A DNA stretch of 64,000 nt from Scenedesmus sp. ARA3 (taxonomy: Eukaryota > Chlorophyta > Chlorophyceae > Sphaeropleales > Scenedesmaceae): positions 34,348 through 98,347 of the forward strand of contig RWJK01001094.1 of assembly GCA_004335835.1 (NCBI GenBank), written 5' to 3'. The notes under the pieces were generated by a model. The model had not been told where the DNA came from. It made no database searches and was given only the letters and a program-made list of their open reading frames with translations. Made by a program: the position numbers and the translations under genes. The first letter of the stretch is position 1; the number at the start of each line of letters is the position of its first letter. Below, in pieces: positions 14,092 to 62,568 of the stretch.

Positions 14092-14165
14092 AGCTGTGAG
14101 AAGCGCCCCGCAAACAACCTCGGCCCCTGCAGCACCGGCCTGTCATGTAACAATCTGACTGTCAC

Positions 14166-14211
<46 letters not shown>

Positions 14212-14761: not shown

Positions 14762-14801
<40 letters not shown>

Positions 14802-31720: not shown

Positions 31721-32590
31721 ATGAAAAGGCAGGGGCCTGGAAGGCTGTGGTCTCTATTGCTGAGCATAGCATTCGCAGGTACGCTTTTGGATACGGTATT
31801 TAGCGGTGCTTCTGCGGCAAAATGCAGCGTTGAGTGCTGCATGCAAGCCCTGGTTTGGTTGGATAGGTACCGCAGGGTAACTTCCAGTAGTACTACTATG
31901 GCCATAGCGGCTAGAACCAGCAGCAGCACCAGCACCAGCAACAACAGCAGCAGAGGTAGCAGCAGAAGGTGTAACAACACCAGCCGAAGCAGCAGCAGCA
32001 GCGATGTGGCGATGTGGGCGTTTCAAACATGTACAGCAGCAGCAGCACCGTCGTTCAGTTGGCTGACATGCAAGCACCTGCAATCATTCATGCTTGACGA
32101 TTATCTATCAACACCCCTCCTGCCTCCGTGTTGCTTCAATCCTGCTCTTATTTCAGGGGCATGGAGTGCACTGTTAGTACCAGCAGCAGCGGCAGCAGCA
32201 GCAGCGGCGCCACCAGCAGCAGCACCCTCGAGCAGCAGCAACCCAACGCCTTTTCTTGCAATGCTGAACATGGCAGGGGTTGCAAAGCTGCTGGCGAACA
32301 CCACCACATGGGCCAACCAGGTGTGCACTGCGCTGGACAAGTGACATGTTACATGTCCTGCCACTTGCATGCGCAAAACCTGGCAACACAAATAGTATCT
32401 CTGGCGATGTGTGTACGGCTGACGGCGTTCTGCCGTTGGTGTTGTTTGGGCATGCCAGGGCCGGCATGTGTGCTGTTAGGAGGGATTTTGCAGGTTACAA
32501 GTAAGCTGCTGTGTGCGTGGCAGTCATGACACACATGGGAATCATGTCAAGCTCCCAGCAATGCCGCTGAGCTCTCAAGCTCTGTACACG

Positions 32591-32621
<31 letters not shown>

Positions 32622-33635
32622 ACTGCTGCCGCCGCCGCCGCCGTTGCTGCTGCTGCTGCTGCTGCTGCCAGGCCAGCAACCCGGCCTGGTACAGCGCCAA
32701 CCTGATGAACCCCAACTGGCCAGCCACCATCTTCATGCCAACCGATCAGGTGAGAACTGGCAGCAGCGGCAGCAGCAGCGGCAGCAGCATCAGCAGCGGC
32801 AGCAGCAGCGGCAGCAGCAGCAATCAGCGTGATGCTGAAACAACGCCAGTAGCCAGCAGCTGCAACATAATGCCCTGCTCACACCTTCCAACAACAGCAA
32901 CCCCCTGTGCTGCGCCTTTCCACGCGCGTCCAGGCGCTGACCAAGCTGCTGCGGGATGCGCAAAGCAGAGTCGGCAGCCAGCAGCTGCTGGATGCTTTTC
33001 CTGTCACTTTGTTCATGTTTTGACCTACTGCTGTGATGTATATTGCTGTCTTGCGGTTCGCAGGCTCTGACCAAGCTGCTGCGTGATGCAAAAAGCAGTG
33101 CCAGCAATCAGCAGCTGCTGGACGCCTTTGCTGCAAACATGCCGCAGTTCTGGCAGCTGATGAGCAACCAGGTGGTGGATGGCGCCGTGAAGATTGAGGA
33201 GGGCCAGGAGTTCACAGCGCTGGGGGGTGAGAAGTTGACCGTGAAGAAGGATGCGACCACAGGGTGAGTGTGAGTGTGAACTTTGTTTGGTGAGTGGGCA
33301 CCGTGAAGTTTGAGGAGGGCCGGGAGTTCACGGCACTGGGGGGTAAGAAGTTGACTATGAAGAAGGACGCAGCCACCGGGTGAGTGGGGAGTGTGGTGCT
33401 ATGCGGGGCGAGTTGGCACCGTGAAGTTTGAAGAGGGCCGGGAGTTCTCGGCGCAAGGGGTTGAGAAGTTGACCTTGAAGAAGGACGCCACCAGCGAGTC
33501 GATGGGGGTTGAGTGTTTGCTTTGCCGGAGCAGGCACTCCACATTTTTACAGGTGTCGGGCGCTGTGGAATTGCACCATTGCTTGAGTGGCAACCGCACA
33601 TCGTGTCAACATATGTGTGACATTCTGCTGACCGC

Positions 33636-33732
<97 letters not shown>

Positions 33733-36123
33733 AGGTCTTGGACCCTGAACGGCGTCAGCACAGTGCTGCTGCCGGGGCAGACAGCCGGCAAGACAGCAAT
33801 CTACAGCGTGGATGCATTCAGCACCCCTGCAGCAGCAGCAACCTGGGCTCCTCTGCTGGCAGCAGCAGCAGCAGCAGGGGGCGCCGGCACCCCTGCTGCT
33901 GCCAGCAGCAGTGGTGCGGCGCATGTTATTTCGCCGGGAGCTCGAATTGGATTAAGCATCGGCATTTCAATGGGGGCTGGTGTGCTGATAACATTGGCAT
34001 GCCTTGCATGTGTGATGTGGAGGAGGCACAATCAGAGAGCAGCAGTAGATCCCTACATGCTGCATAATGCATCGCCGCACTTGATTGCTGCCATGGCTCA
34101 GCAGCCGCGATGGCGGCGGCGGCGGGGAGGGGCCAGCCGCGGTTTAGGCTGCTTGGGGCTAGGGTTTTGCGGTTCAAAGGCCAAAAACCGCATGCTGGTC
34201 GATGCAAAAGACGCTGTTGTTGGAGGATCTGCAGGGGATGTGAAGATTCCAGTGCTGCCGATGCCGGCAGCAGCAGCGGCAGCAGCAGCAGCAGCAGGGC
34301 CTGCGGCAGGGGGGCTAGGAGTGGTGCACAGTGGGGGTGCGCTGGTGGCAGTTGGCAGCGGCAGAGTGCCGACTGTTATTGCGCCGCTGCCGAATGCTCA
34401 TCATAATGATGACTCCTCCGACGAAGAAGATGACGATGCGGCGGCTGAAAATGACGTCACTTCGTGGCGTCACCACCGCCACCACCACAAGCACCACGGC
34501 CACAAGCTCAATGGGGCGGTGCAGGAGGGTTTTGAGGGCGATGGCGAGGGCTTAGGGTATAGCAGCGACACTAAAACCCGAGACCTGGAGGAGGGAGGCT
34601 TTGCTGCAGGAGCGGCGGCAGCAGCAGCAGGGGGCATTGGTGCTGCTGGTTGGCAGCAGCACAAGGGGCAGCAGCAGCAGCGTGGCCTGGCAGCAGCAGC
34701 GCCAGTGGCAGCAGCAGACAGCTGTGACAGTGCTGCTGACATGAATGGCAGCTACTACCCCTCCATGGCTGGCGGGCTGAAGCAGCCGTATGACTCAGGT
34801 GAGGCTTCCAAGATGTGATCCAACTGCCTGCAGGAACTGCTTGCAGGAAGTGCTTGCAAGAACTGCTTGCAGGAACTGCTTGCAGGAACTGCTTGCAGGA
34901 ACTGCTTGCAGGAACTGCTTGCAGGAANNNNNNNNNNNNNNNNNNNNNNNNNNNNNNNNNNNNNNNNNNNNNNNNNNNNNNNNNNNNNNNNNNNNNNNNN
35001 NNNNNNNNNNNNNNNNNNNNNNNNNNNNNNNNNNNNNNNNNNNNNNNNNNNNNNNNNNNNNNNNNNNNNNNNNNNNNNNNNNNNNNNNTGCTTGCAGGAA
35101 CTGCTTGCAGGAACTGCTTGCAGGAACTGCTTGCAGGAACTGCTTGCAGGAACTGCTTGAAGGAACTGCTTGCAGGAACTGCTTGCAGGGGCCGCTGAAA
35201 CGAACATCAAAACCAACACAGCATATTTTGTGTTGCTATGCTGTCTGCTTGCCGTTGCTGCTGCAGCTCCTGTGCCTCAAGCAACCGTGCCGACAGCCAC
35301 GGAGCAGCAGCTGCAGTCCTTCATGTCGAACTGGCAAGCGGCTGGCTGCCCTGGGGGCCGCCTGCTGGCCCTGCCAACGCTCAGCACAGTGCTGCCGCAG
35401 GGCAGTTACGCTGCCCAGGGTTTAGGCCAGGGTTTCGGCTCAGTAGCGCCAGTGTTCAATGATTTTGCAGCGGGTGACGCAGCAGCAGCTGGCAGCACTG
35501 ATCACGCAGATCAAGACGCCAGCGGCAGGAGTAATACTAGTGATCTGAGTAACATGCAGGGTTCAGTCGCCGCAGGGTTTGAGGTTGATGAGTCGGTGGT
35601 GCGGCTGGGGTCCTGGGCAGTCGAGGCGCTAAAACCTGGCGGTCCAGGAGAGAAGCAGCCGCTGCTGCGGCAGGTGGTGGGCGACATTGCATCTGGCCGG
35701 CACCCAGTCACACAGTAAGTGGCAGCGTTTAACGTCATCACTGCAAGCTGTCCAGAACTGTTGGATTCCCTTTTGAGCTGTTGTTTTTGCTGCTTTTGCT
35801 GCATATCCGGCTAATCCAGCAGCTGCGGCGGCGGCAGGTGGTGGGCGACATTGCATCTGGCCGGCACCCAGTCACACAGTGAGTGGCCAGAACCCTTGCA
35901 GGCGCTGTTTGAGCTTTTGTCACTTTGATGAAGAGACTAGCAAGCCGTAACACTCTGGTGCTGTTTCTGAACCCTGAATCTTGCTGCTTCTGCTGCTGTC
36001 CTTGTTTTGTGCTGCAGCAATTTCTGCTTTGAGGAGCACCAGTCACCCGTGGCACGGCGCAACACGCTGGTGCTTAAACCCTTATGGTGCTCTTGCTGAA
36101 CCCTAAATCCTGAATCCTGCTGC

Positions 36124-36156
<33 letters not shown>

Positions 36157-37862
36157 AGCAACTTCTGCTTTGAGGAGCACCAGTCGCCCGTGGCGCGGCG
36201 CAATACGCTGGTGCTGTTTGCGCACAACAAGAACAACATGAAGCGGGCAACCATCAAGTTCTACACCCCACGCAGCCCTGGCTATGCAGCAGGTGGGTTA
36301 TGTAGGGTTTTGGCATGTGTTGGTGAGTAGGGTTCTGAGATCCAGCAAAACCCTGTGCATGGGGTAGCAACATGAAGCGCGTAACCATCACGTTTTACAC
36401 CCCACGCAGCCCGAGCTATGCAGCAGGTGGGTTTCAAGGGTTTTGGGATCTGGCAAAACCCTATGCATGGCCTGCAGCATGAAGCGAGGCAACATCAGGT
36501 GCTGCATTCCGCGCTGCTCCCAATGGCAGCGGCAGCGGCAACCCACTCGCTGGTTTTAGGGTTTTGGGATCCGGCAAAACCCTATGCATGGCCTGCATCA
36601 TGAAGTGATGCACCATCAAGTTACTTACACAGTCCAGGATCTGCAGCTTGACCGCTCCCAATGGCAGCGGCAGCGGGTCTGCAATTCACTTGCTGCCCTG
36701 CTTGCTGTGAGCAGAGACCAGTGCCTACTACCAGATGACTTTTCGGCACCTGCCATACCTTGACAGCACATTCAACACCCCTGATGGCAGCTTTTAACCA
36801 GGCCTTCTGTCCTGACTAACCCGTCGGTCTTGTATTTTCTGTGTGCAGAGACCAGTGCTTACTACCAGATGGCTTTTCGGCACCTGCCATACCTTGACAG
36901 CACATTCAACGCCCCTGATGGCGGCTTTCAGCCAGGCCTTCTGTCGTGTCTAACCCGTCGGTGTTGTATTTTCTGTGTGCAGAGACGAGCGCATACTGCC
37001 AAATGGCGTCCCGCCACCTGCCCTACCTTGAGAGCACTTTCAACGCCCCTGACACCATGTACTGCTCTGCTTGCTTGTTACAGAGACGAGCGCCTACTAC
37101 CAAATGGCCTCGCGCCACCTGCCATACCTAGAGAGCACCTTCAACGCCCCTGATGGCAGCTTTCAACCAGGCCGTCTGTCCTGTCTAACCCGTCAGTCTT
37201 GTATTTTCTGTGTGCAGAGACCAGTGCCTACTACCAGATGGCGTCCCGCCACCTGCCCTACTTGCAGAGCACCTTCAACGCCCCTGACGGCAGCTATGCG
37301 TCAACTCAACACTTCCCTTTTTCACATTTGCTCTGTCGTGCTGCTCCTTCTTCTCACTGCAGAGACCAGTGCTTACTACCAGATGGCGTCCCGCCACCTG
37401 CCCTACTTGGAGAGCACTTTCAACGCTCCTGATGGCAGCTACGCATCAGCGCTGGTGCTGGAGTGTGGCGAGCGCAGCTTGCAGGACATGCTGCAGAAGC
37501 AGCGGCCCACGGACCTGCCCCGCAAGGTGTGTTATGTTACAATTATGTAACAAACTAGCGACATGTTAGTTTTGTGTGGCGTGCTGTTGGTGGTTGGGTG
37601 GCAGCTACGCGTCAGCGCTGGTGCTGGAGTGCAGCGAGCGCAGCCTGCTGGACATGCTGCAGAAGCAGCGGCCCACAGACCTACCCCGCAAGGTTTGTTA
37701 CCTGTGTGTTACTTGTCATTTCTGTAACAGATAAGAGTGTAACATGTGACATGCTGGTGCTGGAGTGTTGGGAGCTCAGCTTATAAGACATGCTGCAGAA
37801 GCGTTGGCAGCTGCTGTTTCTGCTACTGCACCTACTTTGCAGCAACGACACCTCACTTTGCT

Positions 37863-37959
<97 letters not shown>

Positions 37960-39879
37960 CTGGAGATGTTCCACCAGCTGGTGCTCAACGTGCGCCACAT
38001 GCACAGCCACAACCTGGTGCACAGGTGGGGCGGTGAATTCAAATGTTATAAGTATGGCGTTAGTTGACCTGGGACCCCAGCACTGCAGCTGTTGCTCAAT
38101 GAGTGACACATGCACCGCCACAACTTGGTGCACAGATGGGAACAGCTCTTGATGCTTTTGCACTGTTTGGCGAGTTATCTGCAGCCGTGCTTGTGTCGGC
38201 CTCGAATCTCTTGTATAACCTGTGCACCATGCGCGAGGCAGCCGCAGCCAAACACGTACTGCTTTCACTGCTATCCTGTGGTGCCATGTCCTGCAGCTCC
38301 TGTGTCAGACCAGCTGATTATCCGGATTGCGTGAGAATGTAGATCACACATCACTGCTGTTTTTAAACCCTGTCTGCTGCTGCTGCTGCTGAACCCTGTA
38401 GGGACCTGCAGCCAAAGCACCTGCTGTTCTGCAGCGAGGGCCTGGCCTGGAAGCTGTCCACTCAGTCAGTGTGACAAAACAAATCCTTAAACCTCAACTA
38501 CACTAAACCACGCATGCTGCTGCTGCTAAAACCCTGCAGGGATCTGCAGCCAAAGCACCTGCTGTTCTGCAGTGAGGGCCTGGCCTGGAAGCTGATCGAC
38601 TTCAGCACCACAGTGACTGCAAACTGCATGGTGGTGCCGGAGGTGAGTTTTCATGTTATGTTATCATGTTATTTGTGACCAAACAGACATGTAACAATCT
38701 ACTATCATGTATTTGCTCAATGCTTGGAAGCTGATTGACTTCAGCACCACAGTGTCCGCTGCATGGTGTTGCCGGAGGTGGGGTGCTACATTTGGTTACA
38801 TCGTGTTATGTATATTTTGAACAATACTTTAACAATACTGCTGTGAGGCCGCCAGACGCGTTACACCAGACAATTGTGGTGAACTTAACATTGCTTCACG
38901 ATTGTTTGCATGCAACTGCAGGTGTTTTCGCTGGAGTACTGTGCGCCAGAGGTGGCAGCAGCAGTGGCAAGGGGTGACAGGGCCATGGTGGCATGCGGCG
39001 CAGCTGACATGTGGGCAGTGGGGGTGATCGCCTATCAGCTGGCAACAGGTGGGTGTTTGGGGAGTTCAGTTGTGGTTTAAGGGTTTAGATAGGTTTTAAT
39101 CAATGGGAGGATTGAGCGTGTGACAGGGCCATGGTGGCATGTGGAGCGGCAGACATGTGGGCTGTCGGCGTCATCGCTTATCAGCTGGCCACAGGTAAGG
39201 TTTTGGGGTGTGTGCGGTGTTGTAAACGTTGCAGGGTTGGGGTGACAGGGCATTGGTGCGGTGACAGGGCCATGGTGGCCTGCGGGGGCAGCAGACATGT
39301 GGGCAGTGGGGGTGATCGCCTACCAGCTGGCAACAGGTGCGGTCATAGCAGTCATAATTGCGATTTACAGCTAGGTTTGAGTGGTGTTTGACATTTTGGA
39401 GGGTTGGATTGAAAGGGCATTGGTGGCCTGTGGAGCAGCAGGCATGTGGGAAGTGGGGGTGATCGCCCATCAGCTGGCCACAGGTGAGGTTTAGCAGTCA
39501 TAGTTGCGGTTTAGGATTAGGGTTGAGTGGAATGTGTCTTGGGGGTTAATTTGACAGGGCCATGGTGGCGTGTGGCGCAGCAGACATGTGGGCTGACCAG
39601 CTCGCTACAGGTGAATATTCAAATCGGAAGTTCATGCGCGCAGCAGAAGAGTGTCTTTGGTGTGGGGTGTATGTGGTGAGTGAATGTTGGGTGGAGCAAC
39701 GAGGACATCTAGCAGGCACTGCGTTCACAGTTCAAACACCACAACTGCTGCTACTGCTGCTGCTGCTGCTGTTTGATGAACAGGCCAGCCTTTCTACCCT
39801 GCCAGCTGGAGCGACAAGGACATCTGGTGGGCCCCACTTGCAATGCTGGCCATAAGCGCCACTCCGCTGAACGTGCTTG

Positions 39880-39924
<45 letters not shown>

Positions 39925-42900
39925 ATTCGTCCAACTTTACAGGCCAGCCCTTTACCCCGCCAGCTGGAGCAACGAGGAGATCCGGCGGGTTCTGCCCTCA
40001 CAGGCTGTTTCATTCATCAAAATCGCTGCTGCTGCTGCTACTGCATTCGTCCATTTCTACAGGCCAGCCTTTCTACCCTGCCAGCTGGAGCAATGAAGAC
40101 ATCTGGCGGGCCCCACTTTCAATGCTGGCCATAAGCGCCACTCCGCTGAACGTGCTTGCCTGGCTGCTGCTGCTGCTGCTGCTGTTGCTGTTGCTGCTGC
40201 TGCTGCTGTTTCTGTCAAACATTACAGGCCAGCTTTTCTACCCTGCTAGCTGGAGCAATGAGGACATCTGGCGAGCACTGATCTCACAGTTCCCTTCAAC
40301 ATCAAACTGGTGCTGCGGCTGCTGCTACTGCTGCTGCTGCTGCTGTTCCTGATAAACATCACAGGCCAGCCCTTCTACCCTGCTAGCTGGAGCAACGAGG
40401 ACATCTGGTAGGCACTGCTCTCACAGTTGTCTTAACAAAATACTGCTGCTGCTGCTCCTGCTGCTGCTGCTCCTGCTGCTGCTGCTGCTTCTGCGGGGCA
40501 GCCCTTCTACCCCACCAGCTGCAGCAACGAGGACATCTGATGGTGCTGCTTCACAGCTACCCTGCACTCACAAGCTGCTGCTCCTTGACTTGACATGCTG
40601 CTGCTGCATTCATACACACTTACAGGCCAGCCTTTCTACCCTGCCAGCTGGAACAACGAGGAGGTCTGGCAGGCACTGATGTCACATTTATTTCAAACAT
40701 CAAACTGCTGCTGCTGCTGCTGCAGGCCAGCCGTTCTACCCCGCCAGTTGGAGCAATGAGGACATCTGGCGGGCGCTGTTGGGCCTGTCACCGCTGCCGA
40801 GTGAGCTGGTGGACGTGGTGGGGCAGGCGGCACCAGGGGAGAAGGCCTACATGAAAAAGGTAAGCATTCCAGTACGAGCGTGATGTTTACAGTACTACAT
40901 GGTTGCATTCACGCCGTGTGGCGTTCAAAGTTTCGCTATTGTGTTTTGGTGGACAGTGTTGCTGGGTGGGCCTGTCACCGCTGCCAAGTGAGCTGGTGGA
41001 CGTGGTGGGGCAGGCGGCACCAGGAGAGAAGGCCTACATGAAGAAGGTGGGCTTTAGGTTGTGTATCCTTGCAATTCCCTGTAATATAATGGTTTTGATG
41101 CTTTCATGTTGTGTTTTTGGCCTTGAACATGTCATTTTTGTCATGTTGGTCACGGGGCGCTGCTGGGCCTGTCTCCCCTGCTGAGTGAGCTGGTGGATGT
41201 GGTGGGGCAGGCGGCACCGGGAGAGAAGGCCTACGTGAAAAAGGTGGGTGCTTCATTACTAGCGTAATATTCCATATATTACATGGTTGCCTTCACACCG
41301 TGTGGCGTTCACAGTTTCGCTGTTATGTTATGGTGGACAGTGTTGCTGGGTGGGCCTGTCACCGCTGCTGAGTGAGCTGGTGGATGTGGTGGGGCAGGCG
41401 GCACCGGGAGAGAAGGCCTACGTGAAAAAGGTGGGTGCTTCATTACTAGCGTAATATTCCATATATTACATGGTTGCCTTCACACCGTGTGGCGTTCACA
41501 GTTTCGCTGTTGATGTTATGGTGGACAGTGTTGCTGGGTGGGCCTGTCTCCGCTGCTGAGTGAGCTGGTGGATGTGGTGGGGCAGGCGGCACCAGGCAAA
41601 AAATCCTACATGAAAAAGGTAAGCAGAGTGTTAGTTGGGTTGTTGCATAACATGCAGAAACGTCAATGTTGTCATGTTGGCTGCTGCCAATGTGGCTGGG
41701 CCTGTCTCCGCTGCCGAATGAGCTGGTGGACGTGGTGGGGCAGGCGGCACTGGGAGAGAAAGCCTACATGAAAAAGGTAAGCAGAGTGTTAGTTAGGTCG
41801 TACATAACATGCAGAAATGTTACAGTTGTCATGTTGGCTGCTGCCAATGTGGCTGGGCCTGTCCCCCCTGCCGAGTGAGCTGGTGGATGTGGTGGGGCAG
41901 GCGGCACCAGGCAAAAAGGCCTACATGGAAAAGGTGAGCTTTTATTACTAGCGTAACCTTTCACATACTACTTGGTTGCATTCACGCCGTGTGGCATTTA
42001 GAGTATTGTTATGTTTGTGTATTTTGGTTAACGGTGTTGCTTGACAGGGCTGTTCCCCCTGCCGAGTGAGCTGGTGGACGTGGTGGGGCAGGCAGCACCA
42101 GGAGAGAAGGCCTACATGAAAAAGGTGAGCTGCCGCCTTGAGTCATGTGACTATTGTACCTTGCCTTCCTGCAAATTGACGCCTACAATTTGCCTTTGCT
42201 CTGCCGCATGTATGCGCGCAGGTGTCCTGTCTGCTCAAGCGCTGCCAGCTGCAGCGGCTGACGGCAGAGCAGCCGGCCTTTTGCCGATAGAGCACGCTTG
42301 CACGCATGAATTTCAAAATTTGATGGACAAAATGCATCACTTCTCAACATCGCATATGCTCGCTCTGCAGGTGTCGAGCCTACTGAAGCGCTGCCCGCTG
42401 CAGCGGTTAACCGCCGAGCGCCTCGCATCAAGCCGCATGTTCAGCGCCGTGACTGCAACCACAACAAACGTGCCGCTGCATGCGGTGCAGCAGGCTGGTG
42501 AGCGCTCGGGCTTTAAGGTTTTGAGTTTTACGGCCCGCATCATCCTTCATGCGATGCTGTGGGCAGTGCTTCACCCCGCATGTTCAGCGCAGTCACCGCC
42601 ACCACAACGAACGTGCCACTGCACGCGGTGCAGCAGGCTGGTAAGTTTAGGGGTTCCTAGGGTGTGTGGGGTTAGGTTTTAGCAAGCTCAGGTGCTGCTG
42701 CAGGCAGTGCAGTAGCTGCTGCATGTTCAGCGCCGTGACAGCCACCACAACAAACGTGCCGCTGCACGCGGTGCAGCAGGCCGGTGAGTTTTGGGGTTTA
42801 AGAACTGTTCAGGGTGGGGTTGAATGGTGTGTGAAGCTTTGTGTCTGTAAGCAGTACATGCAGTCACATGTTCAGCGCAGCGACAGAAGCCACCGCAAAA

Positions 42901-44972: not shown

Positions 44973-45007
<35 letters not shown>

Positions 45008-45107
45008 ACACAACACAGGTTAACAAAGAGCCCGCTCCTTTGGCAGATGATGGCGCAGGCAACCCTGCATTCCTGCTGCGCCAGGGCAGCCAAACTAAAA
45101 CTGACAA

Positions 45108-45141
<34 letters not shown>

Positions 45142-47118: not shown

Positions 47119-47151
<33 letters not shown>

Positions 47152-48068: not shown

Positions 48069-48123
48069 GCGACAGCAGCAGCAGCAGCAGCAGCAGCACC
48101 AGCAGCAGCACCACCACCAGCAG

Positions 48124-48155
<32 letters not shown>

Positions 48156-51300: not shown

Positions 51301-52209
51301 CTGCAGCAGGCTGCCCTTGCCGCACACAGCAGGCGCTGCTTGAACCGGGGTTGCCACACCCTACTGCTGCTGCTGCTGCTGCAGCAGGCTGCCCTTGCCG
51401 CACACAGCAGGCGCTGCTGGGCGCATGCAACAGGTGTGCCCAGCAACAGGTGTGCCCAGCAACAGGTGTGCCCAGCAACAGGTGTGCCCAGCAACAGCAG
51501 AGGCAGCAGGGGCAGCGGGGGCGCTCAACCTGGAGGCTGCACTCCCAACTGTTGCTGCTGCTGCTGCTGCTGTTGCTAGTGCTGCTCACAGGCTGCTGTT
51601 TACAGGGGATCAGCGTCCACCTGACACCACAAGCAAAACACCTTGCTGTCAGCAGCTCCCAAGCTGCGCTGCTGACTTGAAGTCAGGCATGTGAGGCAAC
51701 TGGCAGTTGCTGCTTCAGCAACTGCAGCAACAGGGCGCAAATGCGTAGATGCTGTGGCAGCTTGCCTGGACTTCCCAATAGCAGGGGTTGGCGCCACAAC
51801 CTGCCTGTCTCCCCAACACTCCTGCAAACTAAATGCATACAAGCAAACTAAATCTTTTAGAGCAACTCAGTGCATACATCGTGCTGTAGCACCCCCATCC
51901 CACCCCGCGGGCCACCAGCACACTGCTGCATGCAACACAAGTACACCACTTGCTGCTCATCTGCTGCTGTTTTGTGGCGGTCACACAACACACTCAGCAG
52001 CAGCAGCAAGGAGTCCGCTGCTGCTGCTGCTGCCGCTCAGTCTCCCATGGGGTAGGGTCCGCTGAGGTTGCCGCTGCCTGCTGCACAAAACCTTATCACC
52101 TGCACCCCGCGGCACGCAACACTTCCACACCACCAGCTGCTGCTTTTGTTGCAGCTGCTGCAGCCGCTCAGCAGCGGCTGCAGCGGCAGCAGCAGCCTTC
52201 CAACTCCGA
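48069..52209. other. Repeat-rich region between the convergent genes A and B
   Basis: No exon chain could be supported. Contents seen: CAG tracts to 48300; a stretch at 48497-48546 that also occurs at 17177-17223; a tripled block at about 49140-49460 containing CAGCCTCGCCTGGTGGTGGC; a doubled block at about 49515-49870; a stretch from about 50677 that repeats bases from about 692; a tripled block of about 78 bases at 51225-51420; and a 16-base minisatellite at 51429-51497. Confidence 0.6.
51225..51497. repeat. Tripled 78-base block followed by a 16-base minisatellite
   Basis: GCAGGCTGCCCTTGCCGCAC and flanking bases occur three times with a CTG tract in each unit. Then CAACAGGTGTGCCCAG is repeated four times at 51429-51497. 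Confidence 0.9.
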
Positions 52210-53819
52210 CTATTCCTGGATGATGAGGTGGCCGCTGCCTGCGCTGCCGTGGCTGATGTTGCTGCCCTGAGACACCTGCGGGACACATACATAACAACAG
52301 TAGGTGCACAGCGTGAAAACCAAGGCGCGTGACACCAGTTAACTGAGTAGAGTGAGATGCCCGATGGCAGCAGTGGGACGGCAGCAGTGAAACATGTGAA
52401 AGCTGCTGCCTGCGCTGCCGTGGCTAATGTTGCTGCCCTGGGACACCTGCAGGGCAGCCAACAGGCAAAGGGAACATTGAAAAAGCCAAGCAGACGGAAA
52501 TGTAACCGGCAACACAATAAATACTGCACAAGTCATCCCAAGCTGACCGCTGTCGTTGTGTGCACCTGTGTGGTGATACACGAGCCTGGAGCAGCCTCTT
52601 ACTCAGTGACTGCGCGCGCGTGAATGCAACATGTGCTCAGCCCTAGTCAACCTTCCTAGCAGAACCCCAACAATACTGAACCTCACCTGTGTAGTGGTGG
52701 CGCCGCGTGCCTGGAACAGCCTCTCACTCAGCAGCTGCCGCGGCGTGGATGCAACATGTGCTAAACCCCAGTCAGCTGTACCAGCAAAACCCCAACAAAA
52801 TCCATAAGCCTTACCTGTGTGGTTGTTACTCCGCGTGCTTGGAACAGCCTCTCACTGAGCAGCTGCCGCGGTGTGGGGCGCAGCGCGGGGTCACGCTGCA
52901 GCAGCCGGCGCACCTGGCAGCAGCAGCAGCAGCAGCAGCAGCGGCGGCAAAGTACATTGATACGAGAGGCAGCAGCACCAGCTTTGTGCTGTGTTGCAGT
53001 TGAACCCATACACCTTGCCTCTGCATGGACACCCTTTCAGGTACACAGCATACAACGCATCATGCAGGGTTCAAATGGATTGTGTGCATTTGCAGCCTAC
53101 CATCTTTAGACCCGATTCAAGCAACCCAACTCACCAGCTGCATCACGCCCCTGTCCACGCCCCTCATGGTGCTGCTGGTGCCGATGGTGCTGCAGCTGCT
53201 GATATTGTTGATGTCGATCAGCTCGTGAGGCAGCGGCTCAAAGCCGCACAGCGCACTCCACACATTTAACAGAAAACATAAAGTATCAGGCAAACACAGG
53301 CACAGAACTGCAAGCAAACGGCTTCCAGCACAGGTGCGTCAGCGCTCACCAGCTTCATCACGCCCCTGTCCACGCCCCGCATGGTGCTGATGTCAATCAG
53401 CTCGTGCGAGAGGGGCTCAAAGCCGCACAGCGCGCTCCACATACTCAGGCGAAACCAAAACCCTCTTAGTTCAGAGCAATACATGCATTTAGCAGGTGGA
53501 TTGCCAGGCAAACTCCATGATGTGACATAAACCAACTCACCAGCTTCATCACACCGCGGTCAACGCCGCGCATGGTGCTGATGTCGATCAGCTCGTGAGG
53601 CAGCGGCTCAAAGCCGCACAGCGCGCTCCACATGCGGCGCCCCCCATCCATGGACCACTCGGGAGGGAAGTAGCGCTGGCCTGTAGATTAGAACAAAGCA
53701 GCAGCAGCAGCAGCAGCAGCAGGGGTGTGATCAACATATTTTTCACAGCGCACTCCAAATGTGGCGCCCCCCATCCATGGACCACTCGGGAGGGAAGTAG
53801 CGCTGGCCTGCAAAATAGG

Positions 53820-53901
<82 letters not shown>

Positions 53902-55278
53902 TTGGTCAATGTTTTTCACAGCGTGCTCCACAGGCGGCGCCCGCCGTCCATGCTCCACTCGGGCGGGAAGTAGCGCTGGCCTATGGGTATGGGAAGGCAG
54001 AGGCAGCAGCAGCATGCGTTTGGTCAAAATGCAGTGTACCTGATGCAAAGGCCCACAGCTCCAGGAGGCGAAAACCGCACTCAATCAACTCATGTGCTTT
54101 GATTTGAAGTTATGGGATTGGTCAAGGAGCGAAGTTGTGTTACCCCACAGCTCCCACATGATGATGCCAATGCCCCACAGGTCCCAGGCTTGGCCACAAT
54201 GCGGCAACAGCCATCAACCCCAAACATCCACAGCTACTGCTTTACTTGTCAAACAGCCGCCATAACCTCAGATTTCACATCTCAACAACCTCAGGGTTTC
54301 TGTTTTGCAGTGCAGGGTTTAGGTTTTGTTCACCTGTGGCCAGCTCCCACATGATGATGCCGATGCCCCACAGGTCCCAGGAGGGCTCCGCAATGATGCT
54401 GACAGCGCCGCCCACCACCGCCTGCGCCACCTCTGGACTAACATACTCCCGAGTGTACACCTGCAACATTGTGATGGTATGTGCAGCATTGTCTCAGCAC
54501 AAAGAGTTGTGATTGGTGGGCCAGCTGCATCCATCACGCAGGTGGGCTCATCAAACAAAAGCACGTGCTAAAACCAAAAAAAGTTGAGTAAGTGGTTTTT
54601 GAGCTGCAACAGCAGCGTGGCACTCACCACCTCGGTCTCCGGCCCGATGCGTGCCACAGTGCCAGGTCAATCACAAACAGTGCCAGCAGCTCTTGATGCA
54701 CCACCAAAGAACCAATGCCCTCATCACATTTGTCTGAATATGCACCTGTGCTTGGGACCAGACACAGCAGTTGAACATCAAGCAATAGCCAGCCAATTGT
54801 GGACTCACCACCTTGGTCTGCTGCCCGATGCGTGCCACAGTGGCCAGGTCGATCAGCTTCCACGCAAACTTCTCTGCAGGGGGCAGCAGCAGCAGCGGCG
54901 GCAGCAGAAGGTCAGGTGAGAGCTCCATATGACTAAATTGTAATGGATGCAACTTGTGCTGCGCAAACAAACACGTGCAGCACGCGTTCTAGCCAGGGCA
55001 GCCGGTTTACCGTCGGCTGTCACAAAGACGTGTTACTTTGATCTTTGTAACATGTCACCAAACACAGCCCACCTCAAAAGTGCACCCCGTCGTGCTCGCA
55101 CTTATATGGGCTGCAGGGCCACAGGCATCAAATCACATTAACAACATGTTCCAAACATGTCAGTGACAAAAAACCCACCTGGGAAGTGCACCACGTTGCT
55201 GGGCTTGAGGTCCCTGTGCACGGTGCCGTGCTCGTGCAGGTGCTGCACCGCTGACACCAGCTGGTGGAAGATGTCGAT

Positions 55279-55313
<35 letters not shown>

Positions 55314-55827
55314 GGCGGCAGCAACAGCAGTGTTTACTACCCCAGCAACAGGCAGAATGTGGTTCAGTCAGCGGCTGCGCGACACCTGCCTGCTGCCTGG
55401 CTGCATGCACCCATGTATGCTCGCCATCAACACTCTTTGGCTGCTCCAGGGCATGCTCCAGGGCCAGCACACTGCTCTTTGCATGTAACATCCAGAAGGA
55501 ACATTTACAACAGTTATAACAGAAGTACCTGCTGCTGGAAGTAGCCAAACCGTTGGAGCGCAAAGGTCTCGAACGTGCATTGGGCCCCTTTCAAAAACCA
55601 GCACACTGGTGGGGTAGCTGCTGCTGCCAGACATGTGAAAACGTAGGTTTTCAACATAAAAAAAAAAAACAAAATAACAGCACACCTGCTGGAAGTAGCT
55701 GGGCCGCTGGCGTGCAAAGGTCTCCAGTGTGCACTGCCCGCGCTAGAAGACCAGCACACTGGTGGGGTGGCTGCTGCTGCCTGGGTAGCTCATCTCCAGC
55801 ACTGGCACAAACTTGCTGGAGGGGCCT

Positions 55828-55875
<48 letters not shown>

Positions 55876-55968
55876 CGATAATCATGTCAGACCAGTACGC
55901 TGGTGGGGTAGCTGCTGCTGCCTGGGTAGCTCATCTCAAGCACAGGAACAAACTTGCTGGAGGGGCCT

Positions 55969-56004
<36 letters not shown>

Positions 56005-56565
56005 CGATAATCATGTCAGACCAGGACACTGGTGGGGTAGCTGCTGCTGCCTGGGTAGGTCATCTCCAGCACAGGCACAAACTTGCTGGAGGGGCCTGCG
56101 GCAGCAGCAGCAGCAGCAACCGTGTGGCTGTGTTCAGTGACAGTGTCAGCCGACACCTTCAATCCTTGAAAGTACTGTTGGCAGCTTGCATCCTGGACAA
56201 CTGGAACATTATGTTGACACATACAAGTCATGCACACAAGGCAGAAGGCAGATGCAAAATAAAATAGCTCACCCATAAGCTCCTCATAAGCGATCATCTC
56301 TGCCATGAAGTCTTTATGTAAAGGCCAATAACTTGAGCAACTCATGTAGTAACAGCCAATGCCGGGGAAATTGACAGAACAACACATGACTCACCGCCCA
56401 GCTCCTTATAGGCCATCATCTCCGCCATGAAATCTTCGTTGCTAGCGTAGAACTTGAGCGCAAACTGGCGGTTGTTGTGCATGCCGTCGCAGAAGTAGAC
56501 CGCCGTGTTGCTGTGCTCCACCTCCCGAGTGAAGTTTGTGTAGTTGCTGCAAGAGTCAAGTGTAA

Positions 56566-56603
<38 letters not shown>

Positions 56604-59600
56604 CAGAAGTAAACCGCCGTGTTGCTGTGCTCCACCTCCCGGGTGAAGTTTGTGTAGTTGCTGCAGGAGTCAAGTGTGAGGAGCAGCAGCGGCAGCAGCA
56701 GCAGCAGCAATGATGAGTAGACCGCGGTGTTGCTGTGCTCCACGTCCCAGGTGAAGTTTGTGTAGTTGCTGCAGGTTTTGAGGTGCAGCAGCAGCAGCAG
56801 CAGCAGTTGTGGGTTGCTGGTGGATCAGACACCTGCAGTTGAATCGGCTGTCCCTGACAGCAAGATCAAGAGCTTCAGCAGCAAGTATACTTAGTAAACA
56901 GCTCTGCCAATAGGTGGCCAAATTGATGGAGAGTACATAACGCATTACATGACAACAGCTGCCCAGTACAATGCTCACCCTATGATGTTGGGGTTGCCAT
57001 GCTGGGGGTGCAGCTCCCTCCGCAGCTGCTTTCCACATGCATGCTCCTGCCAAATAAAAACTACCAACAGTAAGCCAGATCATCGAGACATACATAGTAA
57101 ACATCAATCTCATAAACTGTGATAAACGCTCACCCTATGATGTTGGGGTTGCCGTGCCGCGGGTGCAGCTCCCTCCGCAGCTGCTCCGCAAACGCAGCCT
57201 CCTTGGCACCGCTGCTGCCGCTGCTGCTGGTCTCACTGCCGCCATGCGCCCCCTTTCCACCCTCAACCCCACCCTTAGCAGCAGCAGCAGCAGCGCCGCC
57301 GCCTGCTGCTGCTGCTGCTGCCACTGCCGCTGCCAGGCCCTTGCCGCTGCTCGACTGCCGCAGCCAAGCAGCCAGCTTCGATTCTGGCACCATAGGGTTT
57401 GGCTCAAACACGGGCGTCATTCCCGGCTCGTCATAACATGTCATTCTGTTATATGGCTCTCCTAGCTGTGAGTGTGCCAGGGACTGGGAAGTTGAAGCAG
57501 CGGAGCCCTCGGAGCATGCTGTGTTACTAACGCTGCGGGCCAGGGCAGTGCTGCTCTGCGGGGTTGCTGGTGCTGTGAGGGAGTTGTAGGCCAAGGGAGG
57601 GGTGCCCAGCATTGCTGCTGCTGCTCCGGCGTGATGGTGCGGGTCCTGTGAGCAACCAAGGAAGTCAGCAAACAGAAAGTGGTCCTGTTGGGTTGGTGCA
57701 GGTGGCAGGGGCGGTGAGGGAGGGGTGCCCAGCATTGCTGCTGATGCCCATGGGTGGTGGTGCGGGTCCTGTGAGGGCAAGCAAACAAAAGGTGCACATC
57801 ATGTGTGTTGAAAAAGTGATGGCAGGTGTGCACAGGTGCCCACCGTGGCCGCTGCTGCTGCCCCTGGGCGGTGAGTTAAGGCCATAATAATGCTATGTGC
57901 CAATGTAACAAGCTCTCACCTTAGTCACAACAGCTGCCGTCTCCTGAGTGATGTCTGGCGTGCGCATTGCTGCCGCTTCATCCGGAAAGTCACTGCCCAG
58001 CCCCTGCCATCCCGCATCACCACTGCCGCCTCAGTCGCAGAGTCAAACCCCCAAAACCCCAAGAAGTGTGGACCCAATTTGGTTCGAGAAACGATGGTCG
58101 AGGCAATGCTGTTGCAAACATGTTCCAAGGGTGTGATCGTATATAACAAGCTCACCTTGCAACAGGCACCGTCTCCTGCGTGATGTCTGGCGTGCGCATC
58201 GTCGCTGCTTCATCCGGAAAGTCACTGCCCAGCCCCTGCCATCCCGCATCGCCGCTGCCTCATCAAAACCTCCAACCCCTACCCCAAAGCCCCTGTGTCT
58301 GAACCTTCTGTAGGACAACTGATCAAGAAAGTGCTGTTGCAATCTGCTTTTAACGGTGTGATGGTATAAAACAAGCTCACCTTGATTGTAACAGGCGCCG
58401 TCTCCTGAGTGATGTCTGGCGTGCGCATCGCTGCCGCCTCATCAGGGAAGTCGCTCCCAAGCCCCTGCCATCCCGTGCGCATCGCTGCGGCCTCAGGCGG
58501 ACAGTCAGACTCCAAAACCCAAATAGGTTTAAACTATTGTAGTTCCGAGGCAAAACGATCAGGAAACGCTGTTGCAAACATTCAACATGTAGCACTTTCA
58601 CCTTGATCGCGACAGGCGCCGTCTCCTGTGTGATGTCAGGCGTGCGCATCGCCGCCGCCTCATCCGGAAAGTCACTGCCCAGCCCCTGCCATCCCGCATC
58701 GCCGCTGCCACTGCCGGCACCGCCGCCATAAGGGGGCGTGCCAGGAGGCATCATGCCACGCGTTGCAGCATCACCCGGCTTCTGCTGCTGCTGAGGGCTT
58801 GCCACTCCAAAGGCGCCGCTGAGGCGCTTGGCCAGCGGCCGGCGGCGCAGCAGCACCAGCAGAACCACAAGAGCTGCGATGGCGACTGCACCGGCAATGG
58901 CAATGCCTGCAGGATGGCAGCAGCAACAAGAAAGAGGCAGAATCAGTTGCAATCTGGTGACAAAAACGCTGGGTGCAGCAGCAGCGACCTGTTGGTTTGC
59001 TGCTGCGGGCTTGCCACTCCAAAGGCGCCGCTGAGGCGCTTCGCAAGCGGCCGGCGGCGCAGCAGGACCAGCAGAACCACAAGCGCTGTGATGGCGACTG
59101 CACCGGCAATGGCAATGCCTGCAGGCATAGATAAATTAAATGGACAACTTCAGGTGAGCTGGTGTTTAGTGATGTGCACGTTCACCAGCAGCACCACCAG
59201 GGCCGCAATGGCAATCCCTGCAGAAGATGCAGCAAGGAAAAATCAACAGATGAACACCAACATGCACACCAACCAACAGCCAACCCTCAGCAGTAAAAGC
59301 AGCAAAAGCAGCAACGACTGAAGCCCCACCTGCAATCATGCCTGCGTTGACCCCCTGCGACTGCTGCTGCTGCTGCGGCGGCGGCTGACCGACGCCTTTC
59401 GTGGCAGCGACTGGCCCGCCACCCTCACAGCACTTCATGTTCTTTGCCTGCTGCGCCCAGAAGGGATGCAGGGCTGAAAATGAGGTAATCCACTTTGTGG
59501 ATTACACCACCACAACAAACGAACATTACACCCTTAATAACCACCTGCAAAGAATAGTACAGGCTAGTTCGCACCTGCGATCATGCCTGCGTTGACTCCC

Positions 59601-60833
59601 TGAGACTGCTGTTGCTGCTGCGGCGGCTGATCGACGCCTTTCGCGGCAGCGACCGGGCCTCCTCCCTCGCCGCACTTCATGTTCTTGGCCTGCTGTTCCC
59701 AGAAGGTGCACTGCGCAGGGCTGAAGATGAGGTAATCCATAACGTTGATTATTCCACAACAGACCAACCAAAATATTAATCTTGAACGTCACAGAAAATA
59801 CTACAGGCTGATTCCCACCTGCAATCATGCCTGCGTTGACTCCCTGTGACTGCTGCTGCTGCTGCGGCGGCGGCTGGTCAGCGCCTTTTGCAGCAGCGAC
59901 CGGGCCGCCGCCTTCACCGCACTTCATGTTTTTGGCCTGCTGCGCCCAGAAGGTGCGCTGCGCGGGGCTGAAGATGAGGTAATCCACAAAGTGGATTACT
60001 GCGCTGCCAGCTGTCACGTCCAGCCTCTGAAGTGTGACGTCATCTTGGTTGTAGGCGGCTTTGGGGAAGTACCACTGCGTGGCGCCATTCCTGCAAGCCA
60101 GAGAAAATCAACCACCGAGCAGCATACAATTGCAGCACAACATATGTTGCGCCCGTAACGATGGCAGCATTGTGGTGAAGATGTTGATGGGGACGTACCA
60201 CTGTGTGGCACCATTCCTGCAGGCAAGCAAGCAAGGACCAGCAGCATGCAATGTGTTACATATACAGACAATGACAATGCAAGCGCAGTATGCATCGTCA
60301 TGCTAGCACAACGTGCAGTGTGACAACAGCACAACAACAGCGCAGGGCAGGGCGCAAGCTGGTTGCAGTGTCTGTGCACGATTTCATTGTCCTGCACGCG
60401 AGGCTTGTGCAATAACTCACACAACGCGCTTGCGCAGGGGCAGGGTGCAAGCCAGGCCAGTGCAACTCCTCACACGATGCCCTTGCACAAGGGCAGCGAG
60501 AACACTGGCTCCACCGGCTGCAACTATCCTGCAAGCTAACTCTACCTATCTGGCAATCGAGACATTAAGATCAAGTTCAGTCATTCACACAACGCGCTTG
60601 CGCAGTTGCAGGGTGAACCCGGTTCCATTGCCTGCACCTGCTGCAGCATGCTGCCTGAAGTACACTATTCTCTCAGGACCTGACCCCGAGACCCTCAACA
60701 CATCGAATCAGACCAGCTACTCACACAACGCGCTTGCGCAGGGGCAGGGTGAAGCCTGGCTCCATTGTCTGCAGGTTGGCTCCATCCTTGAAGTCAGACG
60801 ACATCAGCGTCGTGCCTGCCAGGCACAAACCGT

Positions 60834-60891
<58 letters not shown>

Positions 60892-62568
60892 TTTTGAGCA
60901 CAGTACCAAGGGTGGAAACCCAACTCCGTCAGGCATTACAGGCGCAGCAGCACCCATGCAGAAAGTGATTATGTACCGCACAGCCACACCTGGTGCAGCG
61001 TGCCCCGTGGTGTTGCTGCACTCCATCTTTGAAATCATCATCATCTACTGCTTTGGCGTGTTTGACACAAACTCAGCATTGAGGATGTTGATGTTCGTGT
61101 ACTGCACTGCAACATCAGGCGCCGAGGCCAGCGTGTCCTGGATCTGCTGCACGCTCATGCACAGCTGCTTGCTGATGCTGGCCCAGGCACAGAAAGACAC
61201 GACACCAGGTCCAGCTGCTGCTGCTTTCGTGCACTGCACGGCACCCTTATAAACACTTGCTGGAATTCAACCCCAAGAAACATCGCCCATGGATAACAAC
61301 AGGTCTGCCCTGCCCACCGTTGAGGATGTTGATGTTCATGTACTGCAGCGCAACGTCAGGTGCTGAGGCGAGTGTGTCCTGGATCTGCTGCACGCTCATG
61401 CACAGCTGCTTACTGATGCTGGCAAAACCACCATCCAGAGGCCAAAAAAAGGTCGCTTTTGCGTTGCGGTCCTGCAAAAGCAACACGGAAAATGGTGTCC
61501 AACAAGGGTATAGAGAAGGTTTGGAAAGCGTATTGCTTGCTGAAAATCTTTGCGTTGCGGTCCTGCAAAGCAGCCTGAAAATCATGTATTACAAAGGGTT
61601 TAGGAAGGGTTTGAAAAGCGCACTGCTGCTCATGCTGGCCCAGCCGCCATCAAGCGGCCAGAAGAAGGTCGCCTTTGCGTTGCGGTCCTGCACAGCGACA
61701 CGGACAGCGGTTGCCACCAAGGTTCTGAAGGGGGTTTTGTTTGTCAGGAAGCAGAGGCTGACATCTGTACCATGGCAGCGTGATGTGCTAAGCACGCCGC
61801 TCACTGTTGCCAGTCTGAGCACACTATGTTGTGTGCAAGCCTGCTGGCTATTACCTCCTGATGGCCATTGACCGCGTGAAATGGTTTGCGAAGCTAATAC
61901 TCTCTTGCTTGCTAGGTGCCGCCACTCACCGAAGCCAGCGTCAGCAGCCCCTGGAACTTCAGACGCATGCTTGGGTCGCTCATGGTGCCAAAGGTGTTCA
62001 GGTACGTGTCACGGATGACCTTGCCCTCGGGAAGGCCCAGCATGGCTGCAAAAGCGTTCTCAAACTGAGCCTTTGCAGCTGCTCCGCCTGCTGCTGCCGC
62101 AGGCGCTTGCAGGAGGGCGCGCCTGGGGCTGTTCTTGCTGCTGCTGTGGCCAGGCTGCAGCTGCGCTGCTGCTGTGCTGCTGTACAGGATGCAAGCGAGC
62201 GCTGCAGAAGGAAAATGGTTTGGGTGCAGGGGCGTTGAACAATGGCGGGAGTGTCAGGAACGTGACGCTTGGATCATGCCAGAAGCGGGTAAGCAGTACT
62301 GCCTTCCCAGCACTCTGCATTGCATGGCGGTTGCCTCGAGACAAGCAGCAACCCGAATACTGGCCCTAAGGCCTTTCCGTATTTGAAAAGGAGTGGTTGC
62401 GTCTGAAAGCGCATGCTGCCAACCACAGCACCACTGTCGAGAGCTGCATCTCAGCTTGAAGCACATTTGTGAGCGTTGGCACCGCCGGCTGTACCAGAGC
62501 ATTCCCTGACAACACTTACCCGTGATAAGCAGCACGGCCGAACGTCCAACGGCATGTTTGCTGAGCAT
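52210..62568 (-). CDS. Gene B: FAS1-transmembrane-kinase receptor, paralogue of A (15 exons, in-frame TAG)
   Basis: Exons in transcription order: 62568-62520, 62201-61930, 61471-61318, 60815-60725, 60090-59819, 58906-58602, 57645-57134, 56546-56395, 55825-55686, 55278-55179, 54873-54809, 54460-54334, 53680-53541, 52913-52815, 52275-52210. Total 2544 nt (848 codons) with all phases matching. Signal peptide at residues 1-29 (MLSKHAVGRSAVLLITALAC start). FAS1 domain to about 231, with ATFFWPLDGGF and AVIHFVDYLIFSP as H1 and H2 boxes. A Gln/Pro-rich linker is followed by the transmembrane helix at 281-299, then RRR. Kinase from about 552: FALK (Lys583), HRDLKPSN (Asp672, Asn677), DLA in place of DFG (Asp691), SPE in place of APE, SWDLW (Asp733). 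Codon 630 at 55745-55743 is TAG in the hinge, so B is either disrupted, misassembled or read through. An alternative start of exon 7 at 57768 and an alternative last exon starting at 52445 also keep phase. Confidence 0.8.
52330..52750 (-). repeat. Copies near the 3' end of gene B
   Basis: 52445 to about 52340 is an upstream copy of the last exon (VSQGSNISHGSAGSS) with a different tail and stop. 52745-52690 and about 52610-52571 are downstream copies of the end of exon 14 (LSERLFQARG), the second strongly decayed. Confidence 0.75.
53130..53985 (-). repeat. Copies flanking exon 13 of gene B
   Basis: Upstream copies of the exon start (RYFPPEWSMDGG-like) lie at about 53983-53920 and 53812-53748. 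Downstream copies of its end (CGFEPLPHELIDISTMRGVD) lie at about 53450-53345 and 53270-53131; the latter has a small insertion (INNISSCSTIGTSS). Confidence 0.85.
54140..54676 (-). repeat. Downstream copies of the ends of exons 11 and 12, gene B
   Basis: 54676-54622 repeats the exon 11 end (LALWHASGR-like in a shifted frame, same bases as the DLATVARIG part). 54195-54140 repeats the end of exon 12 (WGIGIIMWEL). Confidence 0.7.
55529..56100 (-). repeat. Copies flanking the hinge exon (exon 9) of gene B
   Basis: Upstream copies of the exon start (GPSSKFVPVLEMTYPGSSSY) begin at 56099 and 55967. 55640-55529 is a downstream copy of the end. That copy reads GAA where the true exon has TAG, but it carries one extra base in a run of G and C right after it, which breaks the frame. 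Confidence 0.85.
56270..57040 (-). repeat. Copies flanking exons 7 and 8 of gene B
   Basis: 57035-56979 repeats the end of exon 7 (LHPQHGNPNIIG-like) with donor. Upstream copies of the exon 8 start (NYTNFTREVEHSNTAVYF) lie at about 56776-56716 and 56669-56603. 56318-56271 repeats its end (EDFMAEMIAYEEL). Confidence 0.8.
57700..59745 (-). repeat. Copies flanking exons 5, 6 and 7 of gene B
   Basis: Downstream copies of the exon 5 end (FWAQQAKNMKCGEGGGPVAA) lie at about 59740-59578 and 59490-59330. Upstream copies of the transmembrane exon 6 (IAIAGAVAITALVVLLVLLR) start near 59220 and 59121. Downstream copies of its end (DFPDEAAAMRTPDITQETAP) lie near 58480-58380, 58270-58155 and 58030-57917. 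57768-57700 is an in-frame upstream copy of exon 7. Confidence 0.85.
60160..61690 (-). repeat. Copies flanking exons 3, 4 and 5 of gene B
   Basis: Upstream copies of exon 3 (DRNAKATFFWPLDGG) lie at about 61690-61620 and 61571-61536. 61190-61066 repeats the exon 3 end (QQIQDTLASAPDVAVQY). Downstream copies of the exon 4 end (TLPLRKRVV) lie near 60640-60590 and 60450-60415. 60214-60160 is an upstream copy of exon 5 (NGATQWYVP). Confidence 0.8.

Follow-up and report, generated by a model that had tools for sequence, protein, structure and literature searches.

A predicted family of single-pass FAS1-kinase receptors, one of them pseudokinase-like, in Tetradesmus obliquus

A 64,000-nucleotide stretch of contig RWJK01001094.1 (C776) in assembly GCA_004335835.1 of Scenedesmus sp. 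ARA3, referred to below as the window, carries two convergent genes, A on the plus strand and B on the minus strand, each of which encodes a signal peptide, one fasciclin-type (FAS1) domain, one transmembrane (TM) helix, a low-complexity juxtamembrane part and a protein kinase domain. This arrangement had been proposed in a first-pass annotation of the window, and the exon chains, Pfam profiles and hydropathy bear it out; the FAS1-TM-kinase architecture predicted for A and B is almost certainly real. Together with a third gene (C) on another contig of the assembly (C160), A and B probably constitute a family of at least three single-pass receptor kinases of Tetradesmus obliquus with a FAS1 ectodomain, comprising a pseudokinase and active partners. 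By sequence, A and B belong to T. obliquus, of which Scenedesmus obliquus is presumably the older name, and their public counterparts in this species, OEZ85_013643 (P0001) for A and OEZ85_013642 for B, whose contigs are of equal length, are both filed as hypothetical proteins, as is a further public model of B, OEZ86_007258. The counterparts were already known in that unlabelled form. The architecture has gone unlabelled in part because the public models of B just miss the Fasciclin cut-off and the public model of A is without half of the FAS1 domain. The first-pass annotation knew of no named family of this kind, and no paper describing a FAS1-kinase fusion or naming such a family was found in the literature searched, which mostly excludes subscription papers.

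Exons were joined by GT-AG sites and phase from stop-to-stop segments between 31.6 and 50.5 kb on the plus strand and between 63.2 and 50.3 kb on the minus strand. The exon chains had been described as phase-consistent, and all junctions of A and B are indeed GT-AG and in phase, but the chain of B is interrupted by one in-frame TAG. Gene A consists of 13 exons from 31721 to 42497 that give 955 open codons in phase, and continues beyond the kinase at least to 48065, as judged by tblastn with P0001 and with P0002, a transcript-derived relative; partial copies lie further on. A C-terminal query from P0001 and P0002 matched only DUF3694 in Pfam, below threshold (20.6 versus 27 bits). Gene B consists of 15 exons from 62568 to 52210 that give 847 codons plus a stop, in phase save for the TAG. 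The curated Pfam cut-offs, 22 bits for Fasciclin (PF02469) and 31.7 bits for Pkinase (PF00069), are exceeded by both spliced genes, with 30.4 and 77.1 bits for A and 22.7 and 93.3 bits for B, whose scan used two pieces, with X in place of the stop and leaving out the middle part. By hydropathy, both proteins have a single N-terminal segment and a single TM segment (residues 242-260 in A, 281-299 in B); a third segment in B (485-503) is Ala-rich low complexity. Gene A is 96.6% identical to OEZ85_013643 over 669 residues and 90.4% over 178; gene B, whose exon chain was assembled before any B homologue was compared, equals OEZ86_007258 (P0062) at 837 of 847 positions with no gaps, and is 89.6% and 87.3% identical to two forms of OEZ85_013642 over the full alignment. 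The features are as follows, every exon of the two chains being placed by the exon chain, with further evidence in brackets.

31721 to 48065, plus strand: gene A, FAS1-TM-pseudokinase-like receptor, start codon to last full-length P0001-matched stretch (exon chain to 42497, tblastn beyond)
31721 to 31778, plus strand: A exon 1, signal peptide start, MKRQGPGRLWSLLLSIAFA (hydropathy)
32157 to 32320, plus strand: A exon 2
32672 to 32749, plus strand: A exon 3, FAS1 H1-like motif ATIFMPTD (alignment)
33064 to 33263, plus strand: A exon 4, middle of FAS1 (Pfam)
33735 to 34798, plus strand: A exon 5, end of FAS1 (H2-like TAIYSVDAF), TM helix, low-complexity juxtamembrane part (Pfam, hydropathy)
32693 to 33816, plus strand: A FAS1 domain, residues 82-194, exons 3-5 (PF02469, 30.4 bits)
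33958 to 34014, plus strand: A TM helix, residues 242-260 (hydropathy 2.26)
35267 to 35714, plus strand: A exon 6, juxtamembrane
36159 to 36292, plus strand: A exon 7, kinase N-lobe with VAIK-like Lys, ATIKFY (A/B/C alignment)
37363 to 37526, plus strand: A exon 8, alphaC to hinge (A/B/C alignment)
37960 to 38024, plus strand: A exon 9, alphaE to HR
38540 to 38642, plus strand: A exon 10, DLQPKH ... LIDFST, degenerate catalytic loop and DFG (A/B/C alignment)
38922 to 39048, plus strand: A exon 11, APE region and alphaF
40726 to 40859, plus strand: A exon 12
42371 to 42497, plus strand: A exon 13, end of kinase
45429 to 45632, plus strand: A C-terminal exon stretch, 100% identical to P0001 across 68 residues (tblastn)
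52210 to 62568, minus strand: gene B, FAS1-TM-kinase receptor, 15 exons (exon chain, OEZ86_007258)
62520 to 62568, minus strand: B exon 1, signal peptide start (hydropathy)
61930 to 62201, minus strand: B exon 2
61318 to 61471, minus strand: B exon 3, FAS1 H1-like motif ATFFWPLD (alignment)
60725 to 60815, minus strand: B exon 4
59819 to 60090, minus strand: B exon 5, FAS1 H2-like motif, AVIHFVDYLIFSP (alignment)
59973 to 61953, minus strand: B FAS1 domain, residues 100-228, exons 2-5 (PF02469, 22.7 bits)
58602 to 58906, minus strand: B exon 6, including the TM helix, residues 281-299, 58904-58848 (hydropathy 3.14)
57134 to 57645, minus strand: B exon 7, low-complexity juxtamembrane part
56395 to 56546, minus strand: B exon 8, kinase N-lobe, FALKFY (A/B/C alignment)
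55686 to 55825, minus strand: B exon 9, beta4 to hinge, holding the in-frame TAG at 55745-55743 (public models)
55179 to 55278, minus strand: B exon 10, alphaE and HRDLKPSN
54809 to 54873, minus strand: B exon 11, LIDLA instead of DFG (A/B/C alignment)
54334 to 54460, minus strand: B exon 12, SPE and alphaF
53541 to 53680, minus strand: B exon 13
52815 to 52913, minus strand: B exon 14
52210 to 52275, minus strand: B exon 15, C terminus and stop
52845 to 56500, minus strand: B kinase domain, exons 8-14 (PF00069, 93.3 bits, 92.5 in P0062; kinase fold in the structure model of P0062)

A search of the same genome (87 Mb, 1567 contigs) with the B kinase returned, besides A and B themselves, exons on contig C160 and a small number of weak matches. 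The exons on C160 form gene C, with FAS1, TM helix and kinase in 13 exons and 713 codons with no stop; both ends of the gene are open, the first exon beginning within the signal peptide region and the last having been cut by hand, and the hand-joined pieces score 26.1 bits for Fasciclin and 83.6 bits for Pkinase. Introns in the kinase at alignment columns 132, 188, 230 and 280 have the same phase in all three genes, as does a phase-2 intron in FAS1 that falls within three columns (194-197); the remaining introns are offset by a few columns or are not common. Because these four kinase introns and one FAS1 intron are shared by A, B and C, the whole FAS1-TM-kinase architecture probably arose once, before the duplications. 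Chance or a reading-frame artefact was rejected in view of the three paralogues with the same domain order and common intron positions, and of the public models.

Active kinases carry a beta3 Lys, the Asp of HRD, a Lys and an Asn in the catalytic loop and the Asp of DFG. All five residues are kept in B (ALK, HRDLKPSN, LIDLA) and in C (AVK, HLDMKPQN, LIDLA, with HLD for HRD), whereas A reads TIK, HRDLQPKH and LIDFS, the catalytic-loop Lys being replaced by Gln and the Asn by His, and its kinase looks catalytically degenerate. The P0002 protein, which shares 66% identity with A across 422 residues, retains HRDIQPKH and DFS; thus, the changes in A are conserved and not recent decay. The earlier treatment of A and B as alike receptors therefore holds for their architecture but not for their kinases, as A has neither Lys nor Asn in the catalytic loop and DFS for DFG, nor for their reading frames in the present assembly, where B has the TAG. 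The A and B kinases share 37% identity. In a search of public proteins in which scoring was limited to the 7993 candidates with the most words in common, the best kinase matches besides T. obliquus and P0002 were two Ulva proteins, UM188_0003 (P0065) and UM009_0068 (P0003), with 28-29% identity. In an AlphaFold2 (AF2) model of P0062, the kinase domain has a predicted local distance difference test (pLDDT) score of mostly 70-95, and all 50 of the Foldseek matches listed are kinases. The best 60 of 1341 Protein Data Bank (PDB) matches to the B kinase are CDPK/CaMK, MAPK/JNK, CDK-like and similar kinases, with no receptor-like kinase (RLK) or IRAK by name among them, and nothing in these sequence comparisons points to membership of the plant RLK/Pelle group.

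The FAS1 assignment is based on the Fasciclin profile, whose cut-off is passed by all three genes, and on H1-like motifs (ATIFMPTD in A, ATFFWPLD in B, ATFFWPQD in C) and H2-like motifs (TAIYSVD, AVIHFVD and AVIHFVD, respectively) recognized by eye in the alignment and named as in PMC10147662. The YH motif of classical FAS1 domains is absent from all three paralogues, where MSNQVV (A), MNINIL (B) and MSLIVV (C) replace YHVV; it is treated here as optional, as the Pfam and profile matches stand without it. A profile made from the three ectodomains gave six PDB sequence matches at E up to 10. The top matches were the astaxanthin-binding FAS1 proteins 9wm8 (AstaP-pink1, 1.1e-13) and 22iy (1.2e-13), followed by a BIGH3/fasciclin-type FAS1 at 2.9e-6 and fasciclin I at 0.36; the profile also hit, in the same aligned stretch, the cyanobacterial proteins Tll0220 (0.013) and CupS (0.016), whose names do not mention FAS1. 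The B ectodomain alone matched the two astaxanthin-binding entries at 6.4e-6 (AstaP-pink1) and 6.6e-6, with the next match at 0.79. Since the nearest solved ectodomain is that of AstaP-pink1, ligand binding rivals adhesion as the role of the FAS1 domain. An alternative to adhesion, then, is that the ectodomain is an AstaP-like module for a carotenoid or other long apolar molecule and that the receptor reports photooxidative or desiccation stress. This alternative draws on the E-values just given, on the missing YH motif, and on the description of AstaPs as FAS1 proteins of Scenedesmaceae, some of which bind carotenoids in a hydrophobic tunnel (PMC10147662). However, the likeness may reflect common algal ancestry alone; it was measured as overall similarity to the two PDB sequences; and SynAstaP, a FAS1 homologue with a similar tunnel, does not bind zeaxanthin, as PMC10147662 shows. 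The stress-reporting alternative is rather unlikely, and sensing of the wall or of a neighbouring cell, which the first-pass annotation had proposed, is plausible at roughly even chances.

Several observations weigh against the prediction of FAS1 receptor kinases. The first group concerns the transcripts: P0001 leaves out the TM helix and the latter half of FAS1 and scores 22 for Fasciclin, which is the cut-off; P0002 begins within the juxtamembrane part, past FAS1 and the TM helix; and the Fasciclin scores of the public B models, 21.4 and 21.0, lie just below the cut-off. Given what P0001 omits and where P0002 starts, a transcript of A that joins FAS1 to the kinase is a prediction. The same two models, and P0061, in which the exon order of B is rearranged, could be taken to mean that each strand has a FAS1 gene next to a separate kinase gene, or that transcripts joining the two are rare, and that the fusion is a modelling error. 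This is highly unlikely, as the same order recurs in three paralogues on two contigs, the chains of A and C run stop-free through phase-compatible introns from FAS1 across the TM helix into the kinase, and OEZ86_007258 has the same chain as B, which OEZ85_013642 nearly repeats with one stretch left out.

The second group concerns the reading frame and the genomic surroundings. The in-frame TAG of B is residue 630 (55745-55743, exon 9), a position that is Glu in all three of the public models covering it, two of which are forms of one gene. Recoding of this TAG as an amino acid was set aside, a strain mutation or sequence error being the simpler explanation given the Glu in the public models. 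Tandem arrays with a period of 60-300 bases occupy 21.0% of the window, 8.4% of the preceding 10 kb, and 7.2% and 10.3% of two stretches of the contig that carries gene C; five stretches at four other FAS1 loci have 0, 0, 0, 0 and 3.3%, any array was found in 5 of 38 three-kb loci, and six picked 5 kb stretches of other contigs have none. The TAG, the degenerate catalytic motifs of A and the many tandem copies in the introns of A and B are what would be expected if A and B were decaying paralogues in a hypermutable, repeat-rich region and only C, or none of the three, worked. Against such decay stand the Glu at the TAG position, the 955 open codons of A and the retention of its unusual motifs in P0002; moreover, the exon copy of A at 45429-45632 is 100% identical to P0001 over its 68 residues, while the other matched copies upstream are shorter (18-29 residues, 61-100% identity by tblastn), two of them containing a stop. 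Decay of A and B is judged unlikely.

The third group concerns the domains themselves. The Gly-rich loop GxGxxG is absent from A, B and C (by eye in the alignment), and DFG reads DFS in A and DLA in B and C. Given DLA for DFG and the missing Gly-rich loop, B and C too may have little or no kinase activity. No PDB sequence was matched by the A ectodomain on its own. When modelled by AF2 without bacterial FAS1 rows, the ectodomain had a pLDDT below 50 almost throughout; with 18 bacterial FAS1 rows, an alignment that itself leans to a FAS1 answer, it reached about 35-70, and the order of helices and strands in this second model is presumably compatible with FAS1. Thus, AF2 modelling yields no confident FAS1 fold.

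The number of family members is a lower bound. Searches of the genome with the A kinase (at least 40 matches) and the C ectodomain (at least eight) returned A, B and C plus weak kinase matches on seven other contigs, with no further FAS1 relative of the C ectodomain among the matches listed, and no relative of a FAS1 query from this genome was found on viral contigs. Genome-wide profile searches gave 32 Fasciclin matches and at least 149 Pkinase matches (120 of 659 candidates scored), and list no exon of A, B or C; since they would miss other genes split in the same way, three is a minimum. Four of 20 other FAS1 neighbourhoods were read, as five stretches, by tblastn with six kinase queries (E<=0.001), and kinase matches were found in two. 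At C1087, the match is on the opposite strand, about 7 kb from the FAS1 exon. At C73:28341-41308, a FAS1 exon is followed on its own strand, after some 12-13 kb, by a kinase exon, with nothing matched between them by tblastn, which missed one kinase exon there that the Pkinase search lists; C73 may hold a fourth FAS1-kinase gene. Nine of the 32 listed FAS1 exon matches cluster at 62-78 kb of C952, which suggests a gene with multiple FAS1 domains or a gene cluster.

The receptor reading predicts the following membrane topology and mechanism. FAS1 is an extracellular domain type, and the FAS1 domain would face the exterior, within or beneath the cell wall, where its ligand may be a glycoprotein of the wall, the surface of a neighbour or a small apolar molecule. 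On binding or clustering, FAS1 would pass a change through the TM helix to the juxtamembrane and kinase parts inside the cell. With catalytic Asp, Lys and Asn in place, B and C are the likely active kinase partners; A, with its conserved loss of two catalytic-loop residues, is likely to be a pseudokinase co-receptor or regulator in the supposed partnership with B. The fusion of FAS1, TM helix and kinase would make the ligand of a FAS1 domain and its effect on a kinase addressable in a single protein, and three paralogues, one with catalytic-loop losses retained in a relative, make it possible to compare kinases and a pseudokinase in an alga.

Diverged copies of exon ends with their splice sites were observed inside introns from 8000 to 62000 of the window, most strongly in A and B, and also at L060, L061 and L067. 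Examples of tandem copies in the window are:

36705 to 37288
40170 to 40723
40780 to 41939
55748 to 56118
58000 to 60000

Of the 76 junctions used in A, B and C, 29 have a copy at 75% identity no more than 1.5 kb away, the "used" copy being the one chosen in the exon chains (confirmed for B by a public model). Each of the 49 junction copies is located in the intron next to its junction, and the GT or AG is intact in 46. Tandem duplication specific to junctions is not supported, as copies at 80% identity were found for 21 of 52 junctions versus 205 of 600 positions drawn at random from A and B; nearby copies at the same identity were found for none of 600 random positions in ten other loci. Of the public forms P0063 and P0064 of gene B, the latter has exon 13 repeated in part (PLPHELIDISTMRGVDRGVMKL), and this additional copy resembles the intron tandem copies at 53376-53141. 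Intron-borne copies may sometimes be spliced in, and exon creation by this route is conceivable. A (CTG)n run of at least nine bases is present in the last 45 bases before 7 of 12 acceptors in A, 9 of 14 in B and 7 of 12 in C; it is possible that these tracts drive the tandem duplications. The intron between exons 5 and 6 of A contains a 13-base minisatellite (34822-35189) with an N gap (34928-35088). Upstream of A, at about 4200-19000 on the plus strand, lies a large Cys-rich and Pro/Ser-rich coding region with repeated Cys modules, perhaps encoding a wall or matrix protein; Pfam matched none of seven pieces taken from 4.2-27.4 kb at E up to 0.1.

The FAS1 domain is an ancient module of cell surfaces and usually occurs in adhesion proteins. 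Fasciclin-like arabinogalactan proteins (FLAs) are extracellular FAS1 proteins with arabinogalactan protein glycomotifs, often anchored by glycosylphosphatidylinositol and without a kinase, unlike A and B, in which an internal TM helix is followed by a kinase. Among algal proteins, the AstaPs of Scenedesmaceae (PMC10147662; 9wm8, 22iy) are the nearest solved sequences to the ectodomain, but the matched chains of about 190 residues are FAS1 without kinase. The FAS1 cell adhesion protein of Volvox is likewise an algal FAS1 surface protein, but it is presented as a cell adhesion protein with no kinase mentioned in the passages of PMC7590803 that concern it. The same paper reports 33 fasciclin proteins in Scenedesmus obliquus AS-6-11, and its main text uses the word kinase zero times (PMC7590803). 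On the kinase side, the Ulva proteins P0065 and P0003 have the best-matching kinases besides those of T. obliquus and P0002 (28-29% identity) and one TM segment each (by hydropathy in P0003, by eye in P0065) but, unlike A, B and C, no Pfam FAS1 match. Plant RLK/Pelle proteins share the order of ectodomain, TM helix and kinase, but differ in that none of the best 60 of 1341 PDB matches to the B kinase is named RLK or IRAK. A well-studied functional parallel is that of Arabidopsis, in which the FAS1 protein SOS5/FLA4 and the receptor-like kinases FEI1 and FEI2 act in one linear genetic pathway, as outlined in PMC4701510. There, too, an extracellular FAS1 domain is tied to a transmembrane kinase in cell-wall signalling, but the FAS1 protein and the leucine-rich repeat kinases are encoded by separate genes (PMC4701510), whereas A, B and C are each predicted to be one polypeptide with a TM helix. 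An extended and rather unlikely version of this parallel would have an AstaP-related, possibly pigment- or lipid-binding FAS1 domain gate a kinase/pseudokinase pair at the algal surface as a one-polypeptide counterpart of FLA4-FEI, having arisen by an ectodomain swap onto a class of chlorophyte kinases whose N-terminal parts are different in Ulva.

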